Below, in pieces: positions 16,962 through 28,511 of a stretch of 29,237 nt of DNA. Within the stretch, counting starts at the first letter, position 1; every line of letters starts with the position of its first letter. The notes below the pieces were generated by a model. The model worked only from the letters and a program-made list of their open reading frames with translations. It did no database searches and had not been told where the DNA came from. The DNA comes from a virus, in the IMG/VR virus record IMGVR_UViG_3300042345_000385, positions 1-29,237 of that record; one strand, written 5' to 3'. Both the position numbers and the translations under genes were made by a program.

Positions 16962-17402
16962 GTGGCCGAGGTCGTGTGTAAGGACTGCATCGCCGAGGGC
17001 GTCACACGCGCCCGGCCGACGCCGCATGGCGGGCCACGGTCACCGCGCTGCGTCACCCACCACCGAGCCCGCCGCAAGAACCAACGGGACCGCTCACACG
17101 CGCGGCGCACCGAGGCGACCTACGGGATCACCACCGAGCAATACTGGTCGCTCTACGACGCGCAAGGCTGTCGGTGCTTCATCTGCCAGCGGGCGACCGG
17201 GCATCGAAAGCGCCTCGCCGTCGATCACGAGCACCATCGCGTCGGCTGCGAGCACGCCCCCGAGACCGGGTGCCCGTTGTGCGTGCGAGCTCTGCTGTGC
17301 GGGCCGTGCAACCAGCTCATCGGGCGATGGGGCGTCACCGCTCTCACGCGGGCGATCACTGTGCTCACCGACCCGCCTGCGCAGCGCGTTTTACACGGCT
17401 GA
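16962..17402 (+). CDS. Endonuclease VII-like HNH nuclease
   Basis: This 146-residue protein has the beta-beta-alpha-metal nuclease pattern of recombination endonuclease VII. YGITTEQYWSLYDAQGCRCFIC gives CxxC near 72-75, LAVDHEHH the catalytic DH at 88-89, and ALLCGPCNQLIG the second CxxC and Asn at 113-117. An extra N-terminal CKDC and a C-x3-H pair near 30-34 suggest a second zinc site. Such nucleases cut branched DNA or help terminase, and an HNH gene close to terminase is common in siphophages. The GTG start follows a TAGCCT hexamer by 7 bases (leaderless pattern). Confidence 0.9.
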   Translation: MAEVVCKDCIAEGVTRARPTPHGGPRSPRCVTHHRARRKNQRDRSHARRTEATYGITTEQYWSLYDAQGCRCFICQRATGHRKRLAVDHEHHRVGCEHAPETGCPLCVRALLCGPCNQLIGRWGVTALTRAITVLTDPPAQRVLHG

Positions 17403-18696: not shown

Positions 18697-20409
18697 TTAG
18701 CGACTGACGCGACGCCGCAGCCAGTCCGGTGATGCCATCGGCCGCTCACCCAGCGGCGCGGCCATACTGATCTGGCCCGAGCCCAACGCAGCGAGCCGGT
18801 CGTGGGCGATGAGAGCCGCAGCTACGCGGTCGGGCTGGTGCTGGCCCTGCTGCCAGTTGGCGGCTTGGTCCTCAAACACGCCGAGCTTGTACTCGACGGT
18901 TCGACACCGCTTGGTCTCCAGCGCTTGACGTAGCAGCGCCGAGCGGCCCACCGCGTCGCCCTTGGCTCTCCACTTGAAGATCGTGAACGGCATGTTCGGG
19001 TTGAGCGCGCGGGTCTCCACCGGGCTCATCATCGCCCCGGTGCGGTGCTTCTCCACCGCCTCGTCGTGCAGCGAGCGCCAGGCCCGGCGCACCACGGCCT
19101 CGTAGGTGGTGGCGCTGGCGAAGGACTCCATCGCAATCTCGCGCGCCCCGATGGTCAACGCCAGGATGACCGCCTGGCGGCTCCACTCCTCGGCGGTCAT
19201 CTGACCCGACCAGTCCTCGGCCAGCACAACGGTGCCGTCCTGGTCGAGCATGGCCCCGACGATGCCGGTCTCATCCCCCGCGCCGCTGTCGGCGGGGTCG
19301 ATGCCCACCACCGAGGCGATGGGCATCGACGGCGGGCGCTCCATCCGGGGCTCAAACCAGTCGCGGGCGAACAACCCGCCGGACGGGATGACGGGGCTGC
19401 CTTGGTAGAGCGCGTACCAGACCCGCTCGCCGACCTGGCGGCGCGTCTGCTCAAACTCCCGGCGGGTCCGGCCGCGCGCGGACACCATGACCTCGCCGGG
19501 CTTACGCCCCAGCGCGTCGGGGATACCCTCCTCGGCGATGGCCGGAATGTTGATGTGACGCCACGAGCGGTCGGCGGGGTCCAGTGCTCGCTCGCCGGTG
19601 ATGATCTTCCCCGACAGGTCCGAGGGGTGCCATCGTGTCTGGACCAGGATCACCGACGCCTCGGGGCTCAGGCGGGTCATCACCACCGACATCATCCAAT
19701 CGTCCACCTTGCGGCGGTGGCTGGCGCTGTCAGCCTCCATCATATTTTTGTAGGGGTCGTCAATAATGAAGCAGTCGGCCGGTCGGCCGGTGATTGACGA
19801 TCCCAGTCCGACGGCGACCATGCCGCCGTTGCCACCCTCGACGCGCCACGCGCTGACCTTGTTGGACTTGCCGGACAGCTTGAGGCCGATCTTGTCCTCG
19901 ACCACCGCACCGGTCACCGCGTCGGTGACGCCGGTGCCGTGGCGGGTGATGATGTCGCGGCACGCCATCGAGTGGGTCTCGGCCAGAGCGTCGCCGTAGG
20001 TCGCCAGGATGATGCGCCGGTTGGGGTTGAGTTGCAGCGCCCGGATCGGCGTCCACACCGAGCACAGGCTCGACTTGCCCTCCTGCGGCGGCATCGTCAC
20101 CAACAGGTTGCGCCGGGGCGATGCCAGCGTGCGCTCGATGGAGCGGGCAATCAGCGCCAGCGCCGGGGTGATGTTGTAGTCGGGGTCGATGGAGCGGGCG
20201 AGCTCGGCGGCGTCGGCGTACCGGCTCTTGATGTCCTTGCGGACGCGCGCGGTCTTGAGGTAGGCCAGCATCGCGGCCTTCTGCTCGGGAGGCCAGGACC
20301 GGGCGGTGGCGTAGGCGATAGCCTCGGCCTCGGTGGCTCCCGAGAGCGCGGCGAGCTCGTCAGGACCGGGCGTGGGCAAGGTGTGCCTCACGGATGGCCG
20401 AGTGCTCAT
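18697..20409 (-). CDS. Terminase large subunit
   Basis: This 570-residue protein is the ATP-driven packaging motor and headful nuclease. It has the Walker A variant MPPQEGKSS near residues 106-114, RRIILATYGDALAETHS, the Walker B FIIDDP near 214-219, and VQTRWHPSDL, the coupling motif. The nuclease domain begins with GIDPADSG (metal-binding Asp near 371) and includes AMESFASATTYEAVVRR. ATG 20409 lies inside the end of folE (50-base overlap), so terminase is expressed in the modification unit; a slightly later GTG is possible. No small terminase gene was recognised in the window. Confidence 0.95.
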   Translation of the reverse strand: MSTRPSVRHTLPTPGPDELAALSGATEAEAIAYATARSWPPEQKAAMLAYLKTARVRKDIKSRYADAAELARSIDPDYNITPALALIARSIERTLASPRRNLLVTMPPQEGKSSLCSVWTPIRALQLNPNRRIILATYGDALAETHSMACRDIITRHGTGVTDAVTGAVVEDKIGLKLSGKSNKVSAWRVEGGNGGMVAVGLGSSITGRPADCFIIDDPYKNMMEADSASHRRKVDDWMMSVVMTRLSPEASVILVQTRWHPSDLSGKIITGERALDPADRSWRHINIPAIAEEGIPDALGRKPGEVMVSARGRTRREFEQTRRQVGERVWYALYQGSPVIPSGGLFARDWFEPRMERPPSMPIASVVGIDPADSGAGDETGIVGAMLDQDGTVVLAEDWSGQMTAEEWSRQAVILALTIGAREIAMESFASATTYEAVVRRAWRSLHDEAVEKHRTGAMMSPVETRALNPNMPFTIFKWRAKGDAVGRSALLRQALETKRCRTVEYKLGVFEDQAANWQQGQHQPDRVAAALIAHDRLAALGSGQISMAAPLGERPMASPDWLRRRVSR

Positions 20410-20926
20410 GGTCGAGCAGCAGGCCGTCGGCGGCGTAGGTGGTGGTGACCGCCTCGCCCTCGCGCACCCCGCGCAGCCTCATGCAGTCATGGCGGGCGGT
20501 GATGATGCACGACGCGCCGCTGGGCTGGAGCCGCCCCATGATGGTGTCGACCACCTGGAAGCCGATCTGCTCCTGCACCTGGAGCCGCCGGGCGAAGCCG
20601 GTGACCACGCGCGACAGCTTGCTCAGCCCCACCACCCGCTGGCCGGGGCTGGGCCGGTAGGCCACCGTGGCGGTGCCGCTGAACGGCAGCAGGTGGTGGG
20701 CGCACATCGACTGGAGCGAGATGCCGGACACGATGACCAGGCCGGGATTCTTAGGTGCGCTAAACGTCACCTCCAGGTGGTCACCGGGGTCCTCGGTGTA
20801 CCCGCCCAGAATCTCGGCCCACGCCGTCGCGCTGCGCTGCGGTGTTTTGCGCGTGTGGTCGTCCTCGGGGACACCGAACGCACCGAGCAGGTTCTTGACC
20901 GCCAGGGCGGCACCGTCCACGTCCAT
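20360..20926 (-). CDS. folE: GTP cyclohydrolase I, first step of 7-deazaguanine synthesis
   Basis: This 188-residue enzyme converts GTP to dihydroneopterin triphosphate, the precursor used by QueD. Zinc ligands are visible as Cys75 and His78 in SMCAHHLLPF and Cys148 in HDCMRLRGV. GLSKLSRVVTGFARRLQVQEQ is the typical helix, and its length matches the family. The residue after Cys75 is Ala, where most family members I know have Glu (CEHH). The gene starts immediately after the queE stop (TAGATG) with AAAGGGA upstream, and its end overlaps terminase. In this context it feeds preQ0 rather than folate synthesis. Confidence 0.93.
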   Translation of the reverse strand: MDVDGAALAVKNLLGAFGVPEDDHTRKTPQRSATAWAEILGGYTEDPGDHLEVTFSAPKNPGLVIVSGISLQSMCAHHLLPFSGTATVAYRPSPGQRVVGLSKLSRVVTGFARRLQVQEQIGFQVVDTIMGRLQPSGASCIITARHDCMRLRGVREGEAVTTTYAADGLLLDHEHSAIREAHLAHARS

Positions 20927-21694
20927 CTAGGTCCCTTTCGTATCGCCCCATGCAAGCACATGCAGGCGCTGCGAGGCGTTGATCCGGTGCTGTGCGGCGG
21001 CACCGGCGATCTCGGTCCAGTCGGCCAGCAGCGCCTCGGTCGAGGTGCCCAGCGGCATCACCCACACCTGGCGCAGCGGCCAGCCGATGCCCGCCGCCAT
21101 CGTGGTCACCTGGCGCACATCCTCGGCGTTGCGCACCACCGCCTTGAGGAACACGTTGGGGTCGCCCTTGGCGAGCGTCGCCCAGGACGGGTGCAGTGCG
21201 GGGTCCTGACGGCCCCGGTGCGGCCCGGCGTGGTCGAGCTTGGGCGATACGGCGAAAGCGGTGACGTGCTGGCGCAGATGGGCACCTGGAGCCAGCGTGC
21301 CGTTGGTCTCGATGTGGACCGGGCAGCCGTGCCGGACGGCCTCGGCGAGCACGGTCTGGAAGGCGAGGTTCTTCTGGTGCATCAACGGCTCGCCGCCGCT
21401 GATGACCAGCGGCAGGTTGGGCAGTAGCCGGGACACGATCTGCTCGGCGGTCATCGGGGTCAGCTCCGCGCGCAGGTCGAATCGGTCGCTGTCCCAGGTG
21501 TACGGCGTGTCGCACCACGAGCAGGACAGGTTGCAGCCGCCGGTGCGCAGGAACTGCACGCTGGTCCCCGCGTAAGGACCCTCGCCCTGGATGGTCGGGC
21601 CGAACACCTCCGAGACCGGCAGCGTGGCGTCCGGGCCGGGACCGGCCAGGCGTGGGGTCAGCAGGTTGCTGGTCCCGTCGGGCAGCGCGCTCAC
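20927..21694 (-). CDS. queE: 7-carboxy-7-deazaguanine synthase (radical SAM)
   Basis: This 255-residue enzyme turns carboxytetrahydropterin into 7-carboxy-7-deazaguanine. VFGPTIQGEGPYAGTSVQFLR precedes the iron-sulfur cluster motif CNLSCSWCDTPYTW (C-x3-C-x2-C, Cys near 54, 58 and 61). It is followed by LVISGGEPLMHQ, a glycine-rich SAM-binding segment, and PVHIETNGT. These are the canonical QueE signatures. The GTG start at 21694 overlaps the queD stop (GTGA). It lies between queD and folE in a tightly coupled unit. Confidence 0.95.
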   Translation of the reverse strand: MSALPDGTSNLLTPRLAGPGPDATLPVSEVFGPTIQGEGPYAGTSVQFLRTGGCNLSCSWCDTPYTWDSDRFDLRAELTPMTAEQIVSRLLPNLPLVISGGEPLMHQKNLAFQTVLAEAVRHGCPVHIETNGTLAPGAHLRQHVTAFAVSPKLDHAGPHRGRQDPALHPSWATLAKGDPNVFLKAVVRNAEDVRQVTTMAAGIGWPLRQVWVMPLGTSTEALLADWTEIAGAAAQHRINASQRLHVLAWGDTKGT

Positions 21695-22098
21695 GAGTCG
21701 TACCACGTCGCGGCGTTGCGGTAGCCCTCCATGACATGCACCCGCACCGGGCGCACACCGAGAAGCTCGTATGCCTTGGCGGCGATCAGCGCGGTGATGG
21801 CCTCGGTGGTGGGCGGCTCGGCCAGGGCAACGTGGCGCAGCCCGTGCTCGCGCAGGTAGACCAGGAAGTCGTCCTGGTCGTGGACGGCGAACCCGTGGTC
21901 GAGCTCGGCGTCGATCCAGTCGCCGAGTGCGGCCTTGACCGCACCGAACTCCAGCGCGCCCGTGTCGTTGGGCAGCTCCACGTCGGCCACCCAGTTGTGG
22001 CCGTGGATGTTGCGGCACTTCTCCCCGCCGCCGGTCAGGCCGAGGATGCGGTGTCCCATCGGCCAGCGAAACGTCAGCGTGATCGAGGTCGAGCTCAC
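21691..22098 (-). CDS. queD: 6-carboxytetrahydropterin synthase
   Basis: This 135-residue protein is of the PTPS/QueD family and converts dihydroneopterin triphosphate to 6-carboxytetrahydropterin. Zinc ligands His16, His32 and His34 are visible (MGHR, NIHGHNW), and Cys28 in CRNIHGH is the catalytic Cys typical of QueD. AELDHGF, PPTTEA and VMEGYRN supply the other conserved acidic and His residues. The GTG start overlaps the stop of the upstream DUF6884 gene (GTGA), and the stop overlaps queE. Confidence 0.95.
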   Translation of the reverse strand: MSSTSITLTFRWPMGHRILGLTGGGEKCRNIHGHNWVADVELPNDTGALEFGAVKAALGDWIDAELDHGFAVHDQDDFLVYLREHGLRHVALAEPPTTEAITALIAAKAYELLGVRPVRVHVMEGYRNAATWYDS

Positions 22099-22505
22099 GG
22101 TATGACACCTAGGCTAGAAGCCAGCTCCTTGCGCAAGGTGCCCATGCCCGCGCCTGGGAACGCATCGGTAAAGGGATACCGACACCGCGCGCCTGCCTGC
22201 AAGAGTCGGCGGCGATATTCCGAGCCCATAACACCGATGAGGTCTTCATCGCCCAGTTCCGCTAGTTGGCGCGAAAGTGTCGCCGCTGATATACCCGAAC
22301 GCGGAGCCATCTTGAGATCGTAGGGCTCCACGCGCGTCAAAGGATGCAGCAACCCATGCTTTGCCGACACGATGCGAATATTGTCTACCGGCGATATGGA
22401 TGATGCCCACCGCCACGTCGCCTGGAAGTAACCGCCGGTGTACAGCTTGAAAGCTGGAGCCGCCGACTGCGACTTGGACTTCCCGCACCCTATAAGAACC
22501 TTCAT
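22095..22505 (-). CDS. DUF6884 / YaaA-like protein within the 7-deazaguanine unit
   Basis: This 136-residue protein starts MKVLIGCGKSKS and has APAFKLYTGGYFQATWRWA, then IRIVSAKHGLLHPLTRVEPYDLKM. The LYTG...F and SAK-GLL-P...PYDLKM pattern matches DUF6884 and, from memory, the core of YaaA (DUF328), a DNA-binding protein of peroxide stress. C-terminal GDEDLIGVMGSEYRRRLLQAG adds a helical end. It is coupled to queC (ATGA) and queD (GTGA), so it is probably part of the DNA modification pathway. Its step is unknown; preQ0 tailoring or DNA recognition are the two main options. Confidence 0.8.
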   Translation of the reverse strand: MKVLIGCGKSKSQSAAPAFKLYTGGYFQATWRWASSISPVDNIRIVSAKHGLLHPLTRVEPYDLKMAPRSGISAATLSRQLAELGDEDLIGVMGSEYRRRLLQAGARCRYPFTDAFPGAGMGTLRKELASSLGVIP

Positions 22506-23194
22506 CGCACCTTCTCGACCGCCTCGCGCCAGAACGTCGTGTCGGCGTAAGCGGTGGGGTCATCGACCCCGGCATCGTGGAACGCCTCGGCGCGTTCCAC
22601 GCACGTCCCGCACCGGCCACAGTGGATGTCGCCGCCCTCGTAGCAGCTCCACGTCAGGTCGTAGGGCGCGAACAGCGCGGCACCCTCACGGGCGATGTCG
22701 GTCTTGGTGGTGTGGACGAACGGGGCCACGATGTCCACGCCGCAGCCGAGCACCATTGCCGCCGACAGCGCCGTGATGAACTCCGGGCGGCAATCGGCGT
22801 AGACGGCGTGGTCCCCGGCGTGGACGGCGGTGACGACGTGGGCCAGGCCGCGCGAGGAGGCGATACCGGCGGCAGCCGAGAGCATCGTCGCGTTGCGGTT
22901 GGGCACCACGGTCTGCGCCATCGACTCGGCGGTGTAGTGGCCGTGCGGGACGCCGAGGCCGGGGCTGGTGAGCGCGCTGGCGACGCTGGCACCAAACGTG
23001 CGCAGGTCGAGCTCGGACCACCGGACCCCGTAGTGGGCGGCGACACCGATCGAGGACTGACACTCGCGGATGTGCCGCTGGCCGTAGTCGATGAACAGAG
23101 CCTCGACCGCATCCTCGGGACCGGCGACGGCGAGGGTCGCCGCGAGAGCGGTGGTGGAGTCCATGCCACCGGACAGAAGGACGAGCGAGCTCAT
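22502..23194 (-). CDS. queC: 7-cyano-7-deazaguanine (preQ0) synthase
   Basis: This 230-residue ATP-dependent enzyme converts 7-carboxy-7-deazaguanine to preQ0. The PP-loop SGGMDS (residues 8-13) binds ATP. VVPNRNATMLSAA and CRPEFI are family motifs. Four Cys of the zinc site are at about 184, 192, 195 and 198 (SCYEGG, HCGRCGTCVERAEAF). The length is normal and no extra domain is fused, so there is no amidotransferase extension. It starts at ATG 23194, overlapping the end of the downstream-facing DpdA-like gene. Confidence 0.96.
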   Translation of the reverse strand: MSSLVLLSGGMDSTTALAATLAVAGPEDAVEALFIDYGQRHIRECQSSIGVAAHYGVRWSELDLRTFGASVASALTSPGLGVPHGHYTAESMAQTVVPNRNATMLSAAAGIASSRGLAHVVTAVHAGDHAVYADCRPEFITALSAAMVLGCGVDIVAPFVHTTKTDIAREGAALFAPYDLTWSCYEGGDIHCGRCGTCVERAEAFHDAGVDDPTAYADTTFWREAVEKVR

Positions 23195-24081
23195 GGGCGA
23201 TCTCCGTTCGATGATGTGGTGAGCGAGGCATCAGTGACTCTAGCCAGATCGTAGGACGATGTGGATGCGATGTGGAGATACGGGCCGGGGTCGTCATCGG
23301 GCGAGTACCAACGGGGCGCGGGTATACCGGGCCGGTGTAGCCGCTGGAACCTCTGATCCTGGACACTGGCGCTCAATCCCGCCAGGCGCACCACAACGTC
23401 GTAGTTGGCCGGTCCCGAGGTAGCAACCTGATCGGGGTTGACCCCGTAATGCGCACGCAGCAGGTGCGCCACCTTGGGCATGTAGGTGGACCGGCCATCG
23501 AGCTCGATCGCGTAGTCGGCCATCGAATGAGGGTCGCGCAACGTAATCCGGCCAAACCTCTGAGGAGCGTTCCAGCCCGAGGAGTCCACCGAGAAGAACG
23601 GGAGCTGCAACGCTTTGGCGTGGGTCAACCCCCAACCGTGGAACCGCACCGCCGGGTGCTTGGCGCGGGCGTACTTGAACACCGCCACCAGCCACCGCAT
23701 CTGTGCCGCCGCCGATCGCCCGACCATGCCGCCGAGCCCGATGAAGTCCACGCCACGTCCGGCGTAGTAATCCATCAACGCCGGGTCGGACCCGAAATGG
23801 ATGGTGGGCACACCGGGGACGCCGTGCAGATCGACCATCTCGTGCCAATTACGCCGGGTGGCTTCCGCGTCGCCGATCACGTCCAGCGCCGCGACCCACC
23901 GCAGGCGGTGCGCCCACTGCTTGGCCCAAGCGGCTAGCTCCGGCGTGGTGATTACCGCGCCCTGGCTGTGGGCCGAGAAGGCTCCCGAGTCCCCGATCAC
24001 CCGCAAGCCTACAAAGCGGTCCAGGTTGTAGCCCTTGAAGTAGTGATAGCTGACCAGGATGTTGCGCGGCGTGGTTATCAC
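23191..24081 (-). CDS. DpdA-like DNA guanine transglycosylase, paralogue A
   Basis: This 296-residue protein belongs to the tRNA-guanine-transglycosylase-like superfamily in its DpdA form, which exchanges guanine in DNA for preQ0. DSGAFS (Asp31) corresponds to the first catalytic Asp, AALDVIGD (Asp67) to a conserved barrel strand, and FIGLGGMVG and RFHGWGLT are the glycine-rich barrel strands. FFSVDSSGW (Asp166) matches the nucleophile motif of archaeal-type TGT. GTG 24081 is used because it overlaps the upstream stop (GTGA). It pairs with a second DpdA-like gene directly upstream, and both keep both Asp residues. No C-terminal zinc motif of tRNA enzymes is visible. Confidence 0.88.
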   Translation of the reverse strand: MITTPRNILVSYHYFKGYNLDRFVGLRVIGDSGAFSAHSQGAVITTPELAAWAKQWAHRLRWVAALDVIGDAEATRRNWHEMVDLHGVPGVPTIHFGSDPALMDYYAGRGVDFIGLGGMVGRSAAAQMRWLVAVFKYARAKHPAVRFHGWGLTHAKALQLPFFSVDSSGWNAPQRFGRITLRDPHSMADYAIELDGRSTYMPKVAHLLRAHYGVNPDQVATSGPANYDVVVRLAGLSASVQDQRFQRLHRPGIPAPRWYSPDDDPGPYLHIASTSSYDLARVTDASLTTSSNGDRP

Positions 24082-24935
24082 GGAACCGCCCTGGCGAACG
24101 TGGCGACGTAGGGAGAGCCGAGCCGATGGGCGGTGGTGATGATCGGGATGTTCACCGGTTGGCACGCGAGGTACACGCGGGGCTGGCTCCCCCACCGCTC
24201 CAGCTCCATGTAGCTGCGGAGCATGGCGACGGTGTAGTCGTTGAGCAGGTCACGCCCACCCGGTCCACGGGTCGCCGTCCGCGACGACACCTGGCCGGGG
24301 TTGAGCCCGTAGGACTGGACGAGGGTGGTGTCAGTCGCCGACAATGGATTGCCACGGCTGAGCGACCGGACCCGACCGCCCTGCGACGTGAGGTACAGCA
24401 ACGGCTGGCGACGGGCGAACGACCAGCTTGAGGAGTCCACCGAGAACCACGGCAACCGCAGCACCGAAGCGCTGGTGATACCGAGACCGTGGAGCCGGGT
24501 GCCGTGCTTGGCGGCGACCCGGTGAGCCTCGACCGCCAGCCGCATCAACGGGACGGCGTGGGTGCCGACCGCACCACCGATGGCAACCAGATCGGTCGCT
24601 TCACACAACCGCTCCAGCTCGGCGAGTGGGCTGCCCAGGTGCCACGTCGGGACGAGCTCGACGTTGCTGCCGTGGAGCGACTCGCGTTGGTGGACGTAGT
24701 TACGCCACGACGCCTCGGGGTCACGGATCACGTCGAGGGCGAGGGCGAACGAGAACTGCCCGGTGCGCTCGGCGAGGAACGCGCTGTAGTTGTCGATGTC
24801 GATACGCATACCCGTCGATGCGACGGTGAACGCACCGGAGTCGATCACGATGTCGATGCCGGTCGGCAGCTCCACGTCTCGGAGGTAGGCGTAGCTCATC
24901 AACGCCCGTGGACGCTGCGGCCAGGTGCGGATCAC
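24078..24935 (-). CDS. DpdA-like DNA guanine transglycosylase, paralogue B
   Basis: This 285-residue protein is a second transglycosylase-like protein with the same motif order as its neighbour: IDSGAFTV (Asp32), ALALDVIRD (Asp68), WHLGSP, LVAIGGAVG, RLHGLGITSA and FSVDSSSW (Asp167). Apart from these motifs the two proteins differ widely, so the duplication is old or the genes had separate origins. The GTG start overlaps the stop of the ParB-like gene (GTGA), and its own stop overlaps paralogue A. The two may form a heterodimer, as in eukaryotic queuine transglycosylase, or act on different sites or bases. That is inference. Confidence 0.87.
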   Translation of the reverse strand: MIRTWPQRPRALMSYAYLRDVELPTGIDIVIDSGAFTVASTGMRIDIDNYSAFLAERTGQFSFALALDVIRDPEASWRNYVHQRESLHGSNVELVPTWHLGSPLAELERLCEATDLVAIGGAVGTHAVPLMRLAVEAHRVAAKHGTRLHGLGITSASVLRLPWFSVDSSSWSFARRQPLLYLTSQGGRVRSLSRGNPLSATDTTLVQSYGLNPGQVSSRTATRGPGGRDLLNDYTVAMLRSYMELERWGSQPRVYLACQPVNIPIITTAHRLGSPYVATFARAVP

Positions 24936-25546
24936 AGATTGAACAGGGCGAGCATGGCGGCGGTGTCGTCGTCAAAGCTCCCGCGATGGGCTTCCCACTT
25001 GGCAGCGACTTCGGGCTCCAGCACCAACCGGATGCGCGTGTGGGCATCGTCGGGCAGCGGGTCGCCAACCTCGTTCGCCAGGTCGTCCAGCGACGGCGGT
25101 CCCGACGCGAGCGCGGCGAGCATGTTGAGGTAGTCGGCGTCGTAGCCGGTGCCCTCCAGGTTCTCCCCCAGCGAGCAGATGAGCTCGTAGAGCTGGTCGG
25201 TGTCCACGGCACCGATCTCCGACGAGCGGTTGTCCACCAGCACGATGCGCGCGGCGCGGTCCTCATCGACATCGACCCAGTGGACAAGGATCGAACTCCA
25301 CCGCTCGTCGTCGGGGTGTCGCTCAGCGAGGTCGCGGAACGCCATCAGCGTGTGGTTCCCGGCCAGCACCTCGTTGGGTCGCCCGGTGGCGGTTCCCAGG
25401 TTCGCCACGATGGGCTTGTACTGGCCGTGCGCCTTGAGCGAGCCGACGATGGTCGGGATGTCCCCCCGGCGGGCGTTCTTGTAGTAGGTGGACAGCTCAC
25501 GGGGCGCGACGGCGGTGGTGGTGTTCACCAGGGTGCGGGTTGCCAT
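24932..25546 (-). CDS. ParB-like nuclease-domain protein heading the modification unit
   Basis: This 204-residue protein has the ParB/sulfiredoxin-like fold pattern. Residues 15-45 (LSTYYKNARRGDIPTIVGSLKAHGQYKPIVAN) give the N-terminal helix-strand, NEVLAGNHTLMA replaces the usual G-x-R-R motif, and ILVHWVDVDEDRAARIVLVDNR is the following strand-helix. An acidic C-terminal part contains LNMLAAL and PDDAHTRIRLVL. The start ATG 25546 lies 6 bases after TATCGT; a much longer open frame exists upstream but crosses the rightward island. In bacterial dpd clusters, DpdB (with a ParB-like domain) works with DpdA, so a similar helper role is plausible. Confidence 0.82.
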   Translation of the reverse strand: MATRTLVNTTTAVAPRELSTYYKNARRGDIPTIVGSLKAHGQYKPIVANLGTATGRPNEVLAGNHTLMAFRDLAERHPDDERWSSILVHWVDVDEDRAARIVLVDNRSSEIGAVDTDQLYELICSLGENLEGTGYDADYLNMLAALASGPPSLDDLANEVGDPLPDDAHTRIRLVLEPEVAAKWEAHRGSFDDDTAAMLALFNL

Positions 25547-27510: not shown

Positions 27511-27536
27511 ACCACAACGAAAGGCTCCACACCATG
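27511..27536 (+). repeat. Start-associated leader repeat, diverged copy before the DUF932 gene
   Basis: ACCACAACGAAAGG followed by a CA-rich spacer and ATG. It belongs to the family seen at 17632, 18112 and 26283. Confidence 0.55.
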
Positions 27537-28511
27537 ACCACACCCACCCGCGTCGATGCGTTCCACCGCCTCGGCACCGCCATCCCCGAGGGCATGACCG
27601 TCACCGAGGCCATGACCCACGCCCACATGGACAACTGGAACGTCCGCAAGCAGCCGCTGGTGGCCCAGCTCGGCGAGGTCGCCGTGCCGGTCACGGGCAA
27701 GTACGTCGTGCTGCGCGACAACCCGTTCACCGGCAAGGTGCAGCCGCTGGGCGTCGTCGGGCGCAAGTTCACGCCGTTCCAGAACGAGGCCAGCACCGGG
27801 CTGCTCGCCAACATCGTGGACGAGTCCGACGCCACGCTGACCACGCTGGGCGTGCTCGGCGATGGCCGCAAGACATTCGTCAGCATGAAGCTGCCGTCGC
27901 ACATGGAGTTCATCAGCCCGGTCACGGGCCAGCCCGACATCACCGACCTTTACCTGACGGTGTTCAACAGCCACGACGGTTCCGGGGCGATGAGCGTGAC
28001 GCTGAGCCCGGTGCGGGTGATGTGCGCCAACCAGCAGCGCATGACCGAGCGCCACGCCCGGTCGCGGTTCAGCCTGCGCCACAGCGGCAACGCCAGCGCC
28101 AAGCTCGCCGAGGTGCGCTCGATGCTGGGGCTGACGTTCAAGTACCAGGACACCTTCGCCGCCGAGTGCCAGGCGATGATCGACCGGGAGCTGGCGAACG
28201 AGGACGTGTACGCCACGCTGAGCGAGGTGTTCGGGGTCAACGCCGCCACCACCGAGGCCCAGAAGTCGCGGCGCACCGAGACCGCCGGGATGGTCTACGA
28301 GCTGTACCGCCAGAGCGACACCGTCGCCCCGTTCCGTGGCACGGCGTTCGGGGCGTACAACGCCGTCACCGAGTACGCCGACCACTACATGCGGGTGCGC
28401 GTCCGGGGCGGCGATGACGCCCAGGCTCAGGCCCGCGCGGTGCGCTCGCTGGGCTCGGGCCAGGTGGACGCGCTCAAGGGCCGCGCGTTCGACATGCTCG
28501 TCCCCGCGTAA
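27534..28511 (+). CDS. DUF932 / TIGR03299-type phage-plasmid protein
   Basis: This 325-residue protein starts with an N-terminal domain containing FHRLGTAIPEGMTVTEAM and continues with YVVLRDNPFTGKVQPLGVVGRKFTPFQNEA. LYLTVFNSHDGSGAMSVTLSPVRVMCANQQ and the following HARSRFSLRHSGNASAKLAEV complete the DUF932 signature. Proteins of this family occur in many phages and plasmids and have no proven biochemical role; links to DNA replication or recombination are suggested by context only. It has its own promoter, a structured leader and a terminator, so it is a separately controlled, probably early gene. Confidence 0.9.
   Translation: MTTPTRVDAFHRLGTAIPEGMTVTEAMTHAHMDNWNVRKQPLVAQLGEVAVPVTGKYVVLRDNPFTGKVQPLGVVGRKFTPFQNEASTGLLANIVDESDATLTTLGVLGDGRKTFVSMKLPSHMEFISPVTGQPDITDLYLTVFNSHDGSGAMSVTLSPVRVMCANQQRMTERHARSRFSLRHSGNASAKLAEVRSMLGLTFKYQDTFAAECQAMIDRELANEDVYATLSEVFGVNAATTEAQKSRRTETAGMVYELYRQSDTVAPFRGTAFGAYNAVTEYADHYMRVRVRGGDDAQAQARAVRSLGSGQVDALKGRAFDMLVPA

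Follow-up and report, generated by a model that had tools for sequence, protein, structure and literature searches.

This report concerns a cluster of eight genes for 7-deazaguanine modification of DNA in the IMG/VR viral record IMGVR_UViG_3300042345_000385, whose 29,237 bases, referred to below as the window, come from an incomplete genome. The cluster occupies positions 25546-20360 on the minus strand, directly upstream of the terminase, in the order ParB-like protein, DpdA-a, DpdA-b, QueC, DUF6884 protein, QueD, QueE and FolE, followed by the terminase large subunit (TerL). All eight open reading frames (ORFs) are open and run head to tail; six of the seven internal junctions are exact 4-base overlaps, and QueE and FolE abut with no overlap. 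A first-pass annotation had described an eight-gene operon at 20360-25546 in this same order, and its ORFs and families were all borne out. Such gene content and order are far beyond chance, and we are nearly certain that the locus is a DNA-modification cassette of the type found in the phages Rosebush and Saguaro, which combines DpdA with synthesis of 7-cyano-7-deazaguanine (preQ0). The overall system is already known; what sets this locus apart from the Rosebush/Saguaro cassette is a pair of DpdAs from two lineages and a DUF6884 protein placed between QueC and QueD. The gene content and order, the identities of folds and motifs, the two DpdA lineages and the recurrence and exclusivity of DUF6884 described below were read from the sequence.

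The first gene of the minus-strand cassette (24932..25546) encodes a ParB-like protein of 204 amino acids (PHROG ParB-like, 6.9e-58), possibly a DpdB-like helper, and overlaps the next gene by 4 bases. It is followed by two putative DNA transglycosylases resembling tRNA-guanine transglycosylase (TGT), both with a GTG start and both matching PHROG families named 'queuine tRNA-ribosyltransferase': DpdA-a (24078..24935, 285 amino acids, 1.9e-39), of the Knocker/Rinkes/Sonali lineage, and DpdA-b (23191..24081, 296 amino acids, phrog_7068, 3.5e-136), of the Rosebush/Saguaro lineage. QueC, the preQ0 synthase (22502..23194, 230 amino acids, PF06508, 1.6e-52), has no amidotransferase domain, carries the motifs SGGMDS and CYEGGDIHCGRCGTC, and has QueC 2pg3 as its nearest solved structure. 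Next come the DUF6884 protein (22095..22505, 136 amino acids, PF21818, 3.1e-18), related to DpdC and a candidate enzyme for converting (d)preQ0 to 7-amido-7-deazaguanine (ADG); QueD (21691..22098, 135 amino acids, GTG start, PTPS, 3.3e-15), with C-x3-HGH; the radical S-adenosylmethionine protein QueE (20927..21694, 255 amino acids, GTG start, Radical_SAM 1.3e-7, phrog_2076 (QueE) 3.1e-68), with CNLSCSWC; and FolE, GTP cyclohydrolase I (20360..20926, 188 amino acids, GTP_cyclohydroI PF01227, 2.8e-49), with CAHH and HDCM. These catalytic motifs confirm the earlier statement that key metal or cofactor residues are visible in FolE, QueD, QueE and QueC. The same annotation had seen no QueF, no amidotransferase-type QueC and no tRNA-type zinc TGT; we likewise found no match to QueF or to a glutamine-amidotransferase (GAT) domain anywhere in the window, and no CxCx2C zinc motif in DpdA-a or DpdA-b. 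The gene set is thus that of Rosebush, with FolE, QueD, QueE and QueC plus DpdA, and without QueF or an amidotransferase.

The cassette as such is already known as the anti-restriction guanine replacement of mycobacterial phages. In Rosebush DNA, mass spectrometry found about 28% of guanines replaced by 2'-deoxy-preQ0 (dPreQ0) and only a trace of 2'-deoxy-7-amido-7-deazaguanosine (dADG), and this DNA resists several restriction enzymes (PMC6884629). Annotations give the order ParB-DpdA-QueC-QueD-QueE-FolE-TerL for Saguaro, where a small terminase gene is inserted within it, for Lars (species Rosebushvirus rosebush), for Gordonia phage Sour and for others. Since this order is shared and the Rosebush modification has been measured, the cassette is not new: modification of this kind is indeed known in related phages, as had been said, but the view that gene order is its notable part is not supported, and a novel gene order was rejected.

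Several relatives help to place the window. The Rosebush/Saguaro cassettes (Bclasvirinae) share its order upstream of TerL, its overlapping genes and the lack of QueF and GAT-type QueC, and are about 70% identical to it in DNA across 60-63% of the region; unlike the window, they have one DpdA, and the DUF6884 of these phages is encoded apart from the operon and on the opposite strand. DpdA-a is most closely related to the DpdAs of Knocker (54%) and Rinkes (51%), encoded in an operon of the same kind that differs from that of the window in containing QueF, adenylate kinase and a single DpdA, with DUF6884 elsewhere. The gp2 proteins of the two phages (L004:1310-1702 in Knocker, L005:1299-1691 in Rinkes), annotated as GTP cyclohydrolase, match QueF (PF14489, E ~1e-15 to 1e-14), so that these phages may put 7-aminomethyl-7-deazaguanine (preQ1), not preQ0, in their DNA. 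Knocker gp1 (L004:1-1317) is a ParB-like protein fused to a DUF6610 domain, of unassigned function. Microbacterium phage Megan resembles the window in having two adjacent DpdAs before QueC and a cassette next to TerL, but its QueC carries a glutamine-amidotransferase domain and no DUF6884 was found in the Megan record. The Nocardia transvalensis locus L109 reads ParB-DpdA-QueC-DUF6884-QueD-QueE-FolE and holds the nearest DUF6884 relative, but it has one DpdA, and none of its genes in the 12.7 kb examined matches the terminase, portal or head genes of the window. Both L109 and L107 (Kutzneria viridogrisea), in which two DpdAs flank a ParB-like gene, are complete preQ0/DpdA operons inside bacterial assemblies. 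Bacterial dpd islands (dpdA-dpdB-dpdC) also place a TGT-like DpdA and proteins of the ParB and DUF328 superfamilies beside preQ0 genes; unlike in the window, their DpdA belongs to a separate group (PMC6884629) and their DpdC is longer by a C-terminal half. The window showed no dpdD-K restriction module, though no search aimed at it was made.

The DUF6884 protein of the window scored 66.7 bits against PF21818 (curated cut-off 30) and gave weak matches to YaaA (PF03883, E = 4e-4) and to the PADLOC model of DpdC (E = 0.0012). Its structural model (predicted local distance difference test, pLDDT, 88) had a sole significant match in the PDB, Escherichia coli YaaA of the DUF328 family (5caj, E = 2.8e-5); as modelled, the protein has the YaaA/DUF328 fold. 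DpdC is a DUF328 protein hydrolysing dPreQ0 to dADG (PMC12839542), and dpdC is listed under DUF6884 in PMC11888242. Bacterial DpdCs for comparison were gathered with the PADLOC model; at locus L118, QueD, QueE and QueC lie beside DpdC, a DpdB-like ORF and DpdA. When aligned with five DpdCs using hhalign, the DUF6884 profile scored 35.3, compared with at most 17.9 for 200 column-shuffled controls and at most 17.5 for seven other operon profiles; with a single DpdC sequence the signal was too weak (3.7% probability), and it became clear only with all five. The two families have in common C-x3-K, LYxG, SAxxG-L and a Tyr. By these alignments the operon DUF6884 is detectably homologous to the N-terminal half of bacterial DpdC, and on this comparison we class the window protein as DpdC-related, not as DpdC. 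In QueF and ArcS a Cys attacks the preQ0 nitrile, and by analogy such an attack would be a reasonable mechanism for DUF6884 as well. Sequence searches of the PDB with the DUF6884 protein, the ParB-like protein and the DpdA profile gave nothing useful.

We then considered the distribution of DUF6884 over 87 non-redundant loci with DpdA, QueD, QueE and FolE. It occurs within 5 kb of 17 of these operons and directly against a same-strand operon gene in 12, eight of which have it between QueC and QueD; Acinetobacter phage HD01 is one cultured phage with such an operon copy. All 17 fall among the 57 operons with plain QueC, no QueF and no GAT domain (hypergeometric probability 2.8e-4, ignoring shared ancestry), as expected if the protein acts in a step that consumes preQ0. 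The copy of the window pairs, in the DUF6884 tree, with the operon copy of L109, which has the same gene order (support 94/95). The copies of Rosebush, Saguaro, Knocker and Rinkes, all outside the operon and on the other strand, form a clade with copies from contigs where no DpdA was found (95/97). A genome-contig scan with the window protein found no relatives. Megan gp6 (L022:4064-4489) and Typha gp4 (L023:2043-2468) are 141-amino-acid hypothetical proteins directly before QueD in their operons; considered as DUF6884 for these similar slots, neither gave a Pfam match. No QueC was found in the 10 kb examined in Typha.

We propose the following scheme, of which we infer every catalytic step, the division of motifs between the DpdAs, the dADG end product and the protection. 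FolE, QueD, QueE and QueC would convert GTP into the free base preQ0, which the two DpdAs would put in place of guanines in the DNA of the phage, probably at different DNA motifs. The DUF6884 protein would be a candidate for the (d)preQ0-to-ADG step, which suggests an amide end product, the ParB-like protein may help targeting in a DpdB-like role, and the modified DNA would resist host restriction. The chance that phage DNA holds dADG, in whole or in part, is about one half, and the entire scheme, dADG included, falls just short of even. More tentatively, with somewhat less than an even chance, the operon DUF6884 could be a minimal phage DpdC, one of a family of small enzymes that hydrate the nitrile of (d)preQ0 to the amide and so give dADG in place of dPreQ0 across a subgroup of phage DpdA cassettes, with the two DpdA lineages widening the motif set in this phage.

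dPreQ0 had earlier been taken as the simplest product. The preQ0 synthesis and the DpdA modification cassette stand, but plain dPreQ0 is in doubt because the operon holds a relative of DpdC, the bacterial dPreQ0-to-dADG enzyme. Both DpdAs might nevertheless insert preQ0 while DUF6884 does something else, such as DNA binding or regulation, as in other phages; we regard this as a serious possibility, if still on the less probable side. Several observations lean that way and count against dADG. Rosebush has the same core set and a DUF6884 gene away from its operon, but holds dPreQ0 with hardly any dADG (PMC6884629). The operon copies are not one clade in the DUF6884 tree, and DUF6884 proteins with the same C-x3-K are common in phages and plasmids outside the pathway. 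The window protein has 136 amino acids, compared with about 300 in DpdCs, and is without their C-terminal half. Phages 7-11, CP220 and MED16 matched neither DUF6884 nor DUF328 although dADG is reported from them, so there are other routes to dADG; a correlation between reported dADG and DUF6884, sought in these three and nt-1 with CAjan as dPreQ0 control, gained no support, as none of them gave a match to either family. Plain dPreQ0, on the other hand, fits poorly with a DUF6884 locked in the same operon slot across diverged viruses, missing where the operon makes preQ1 or the archaeosine base (G+) or has no QueC, and homologous to DpdC. As the Rosebush copy is non-operon and belongs to another clade, the lack of dADG in that phage is weak evidence against an operon-type DUF6884.

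The two DpdA lineages had gone unremarked in the first-pass annotation. DpdA-a shares 54% identity with Knocker gp3 and forms a clade with the enzymes of Knocker, Rinkes, Sonali and L030 (Shimodaira-Hasegawa-like approximate likelihood ratio test 100), while DpdA-b is 66% identical to Saguaro gp2 and groups with Rosebush and Saguaro (support 95-100). According to this tree the pair is assembled from two lineages, and a recent tandem duplication is ruled out. Two DpdAs occur in ten of the 87 operons, so the arrangement is not unique; in the tree the pairs of Megan and L072 resemble duplications and that of L031 resembles the window. D32, D68, H149 and D167 (DpdA-a numbering) are kept in both enzymes, the last three being invariant across all 84 DpdAs aligned, and H149 would correspond, judging by this invariance, to His196 of the published DpdA description. 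The TGT fold, the catalytic Asp and the conserved His absent from DpdA2 are those of the first phage DpdA subfamily, and the best fold match to the DpdA-a model is tRNA-guanine transglycosylase. Being of two lineages, the enzymes probably recognise different DNA motifs. The DpdA of CAjan is reported, as cited in PMC8306585, to modify GA and GGC sites; by analogy with such site choice, different motifs would be the simplest use of two DpdAs. An improbable alternative is that DpdA-a inserts another base (e.g. preQ1, if QueF lies in a missing part of the genome) or that the DpdAs form a heterodimer: Knocker and Rinkes do carry QueF immediately before the DpdA-a orthologue, and the 29 kb of the window, against 67-72 kb for related phages, point to an incomplete genome, but no QueF is in the window, Sonali has a DpdA-a type enzyme with no annotated QueF beside its gene, and with catalytic residues kept in both neither DpdA looks like a non-catalytic partner, and a dead partner was rejected on that ground.

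A ParB-like gene lies near DpdA in 59 of the 87 operons, and a DpdB role for it has already been suggested for CRB2 (PMC6392294). The ParB-like protein of the window reads AGNHT where the DpdB-like ORF of L118 reads DGQQR (the DpdB motif is DGQHR-like), and it gave no Pfam or PADLOC match.

The route by which phages come to hold dADG has been described as an open question (PMC8306585), for which a small DpdC relative recurring in preQ0/DpdA operons is a concrete candidate. If it is the right one, about one in seven of the surveyed operons would have a different predicted base, and the kinship with DpdC may give part of DUF6884 a function. The DpdA pair, in turn, offers a natural test case for how DpdAs choose DNA motifs.

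TerL (18697..20409, minus strand, phrog_38, 2.2e-93) adjoins the cassette and lies outside the modification pathway. As called, it overlaps FolE by 50 bases; its homology begins at residue 37, so that the true start may lie downstream, which would remove this overlap. It is closest to that of Gordonia phage Evaa (72.6%), with Rosebush-type phages at 66%, and this kinship makes an actinobacterial host likely. Where the window has its DpdA operon, Evaa (L197, 1-7000) has two methyltransferase genes together with a ParB-like gene, as though the ParB-like gene stayed in place and modification cassettes beside the terminase were swapped. Elsewhere the window encodes portal, MuF/protease, major head and major tail proteins, and a second contig, L017, is identical to the window over 13,044 bases and continues past its end. 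Two genes lie on the plus strand, opposite to the cassette: one for endonuclease VII (16962-17402), located between those for portal and terminase, and one for a DUF932 protein (27534-28511), beyond the operon start.

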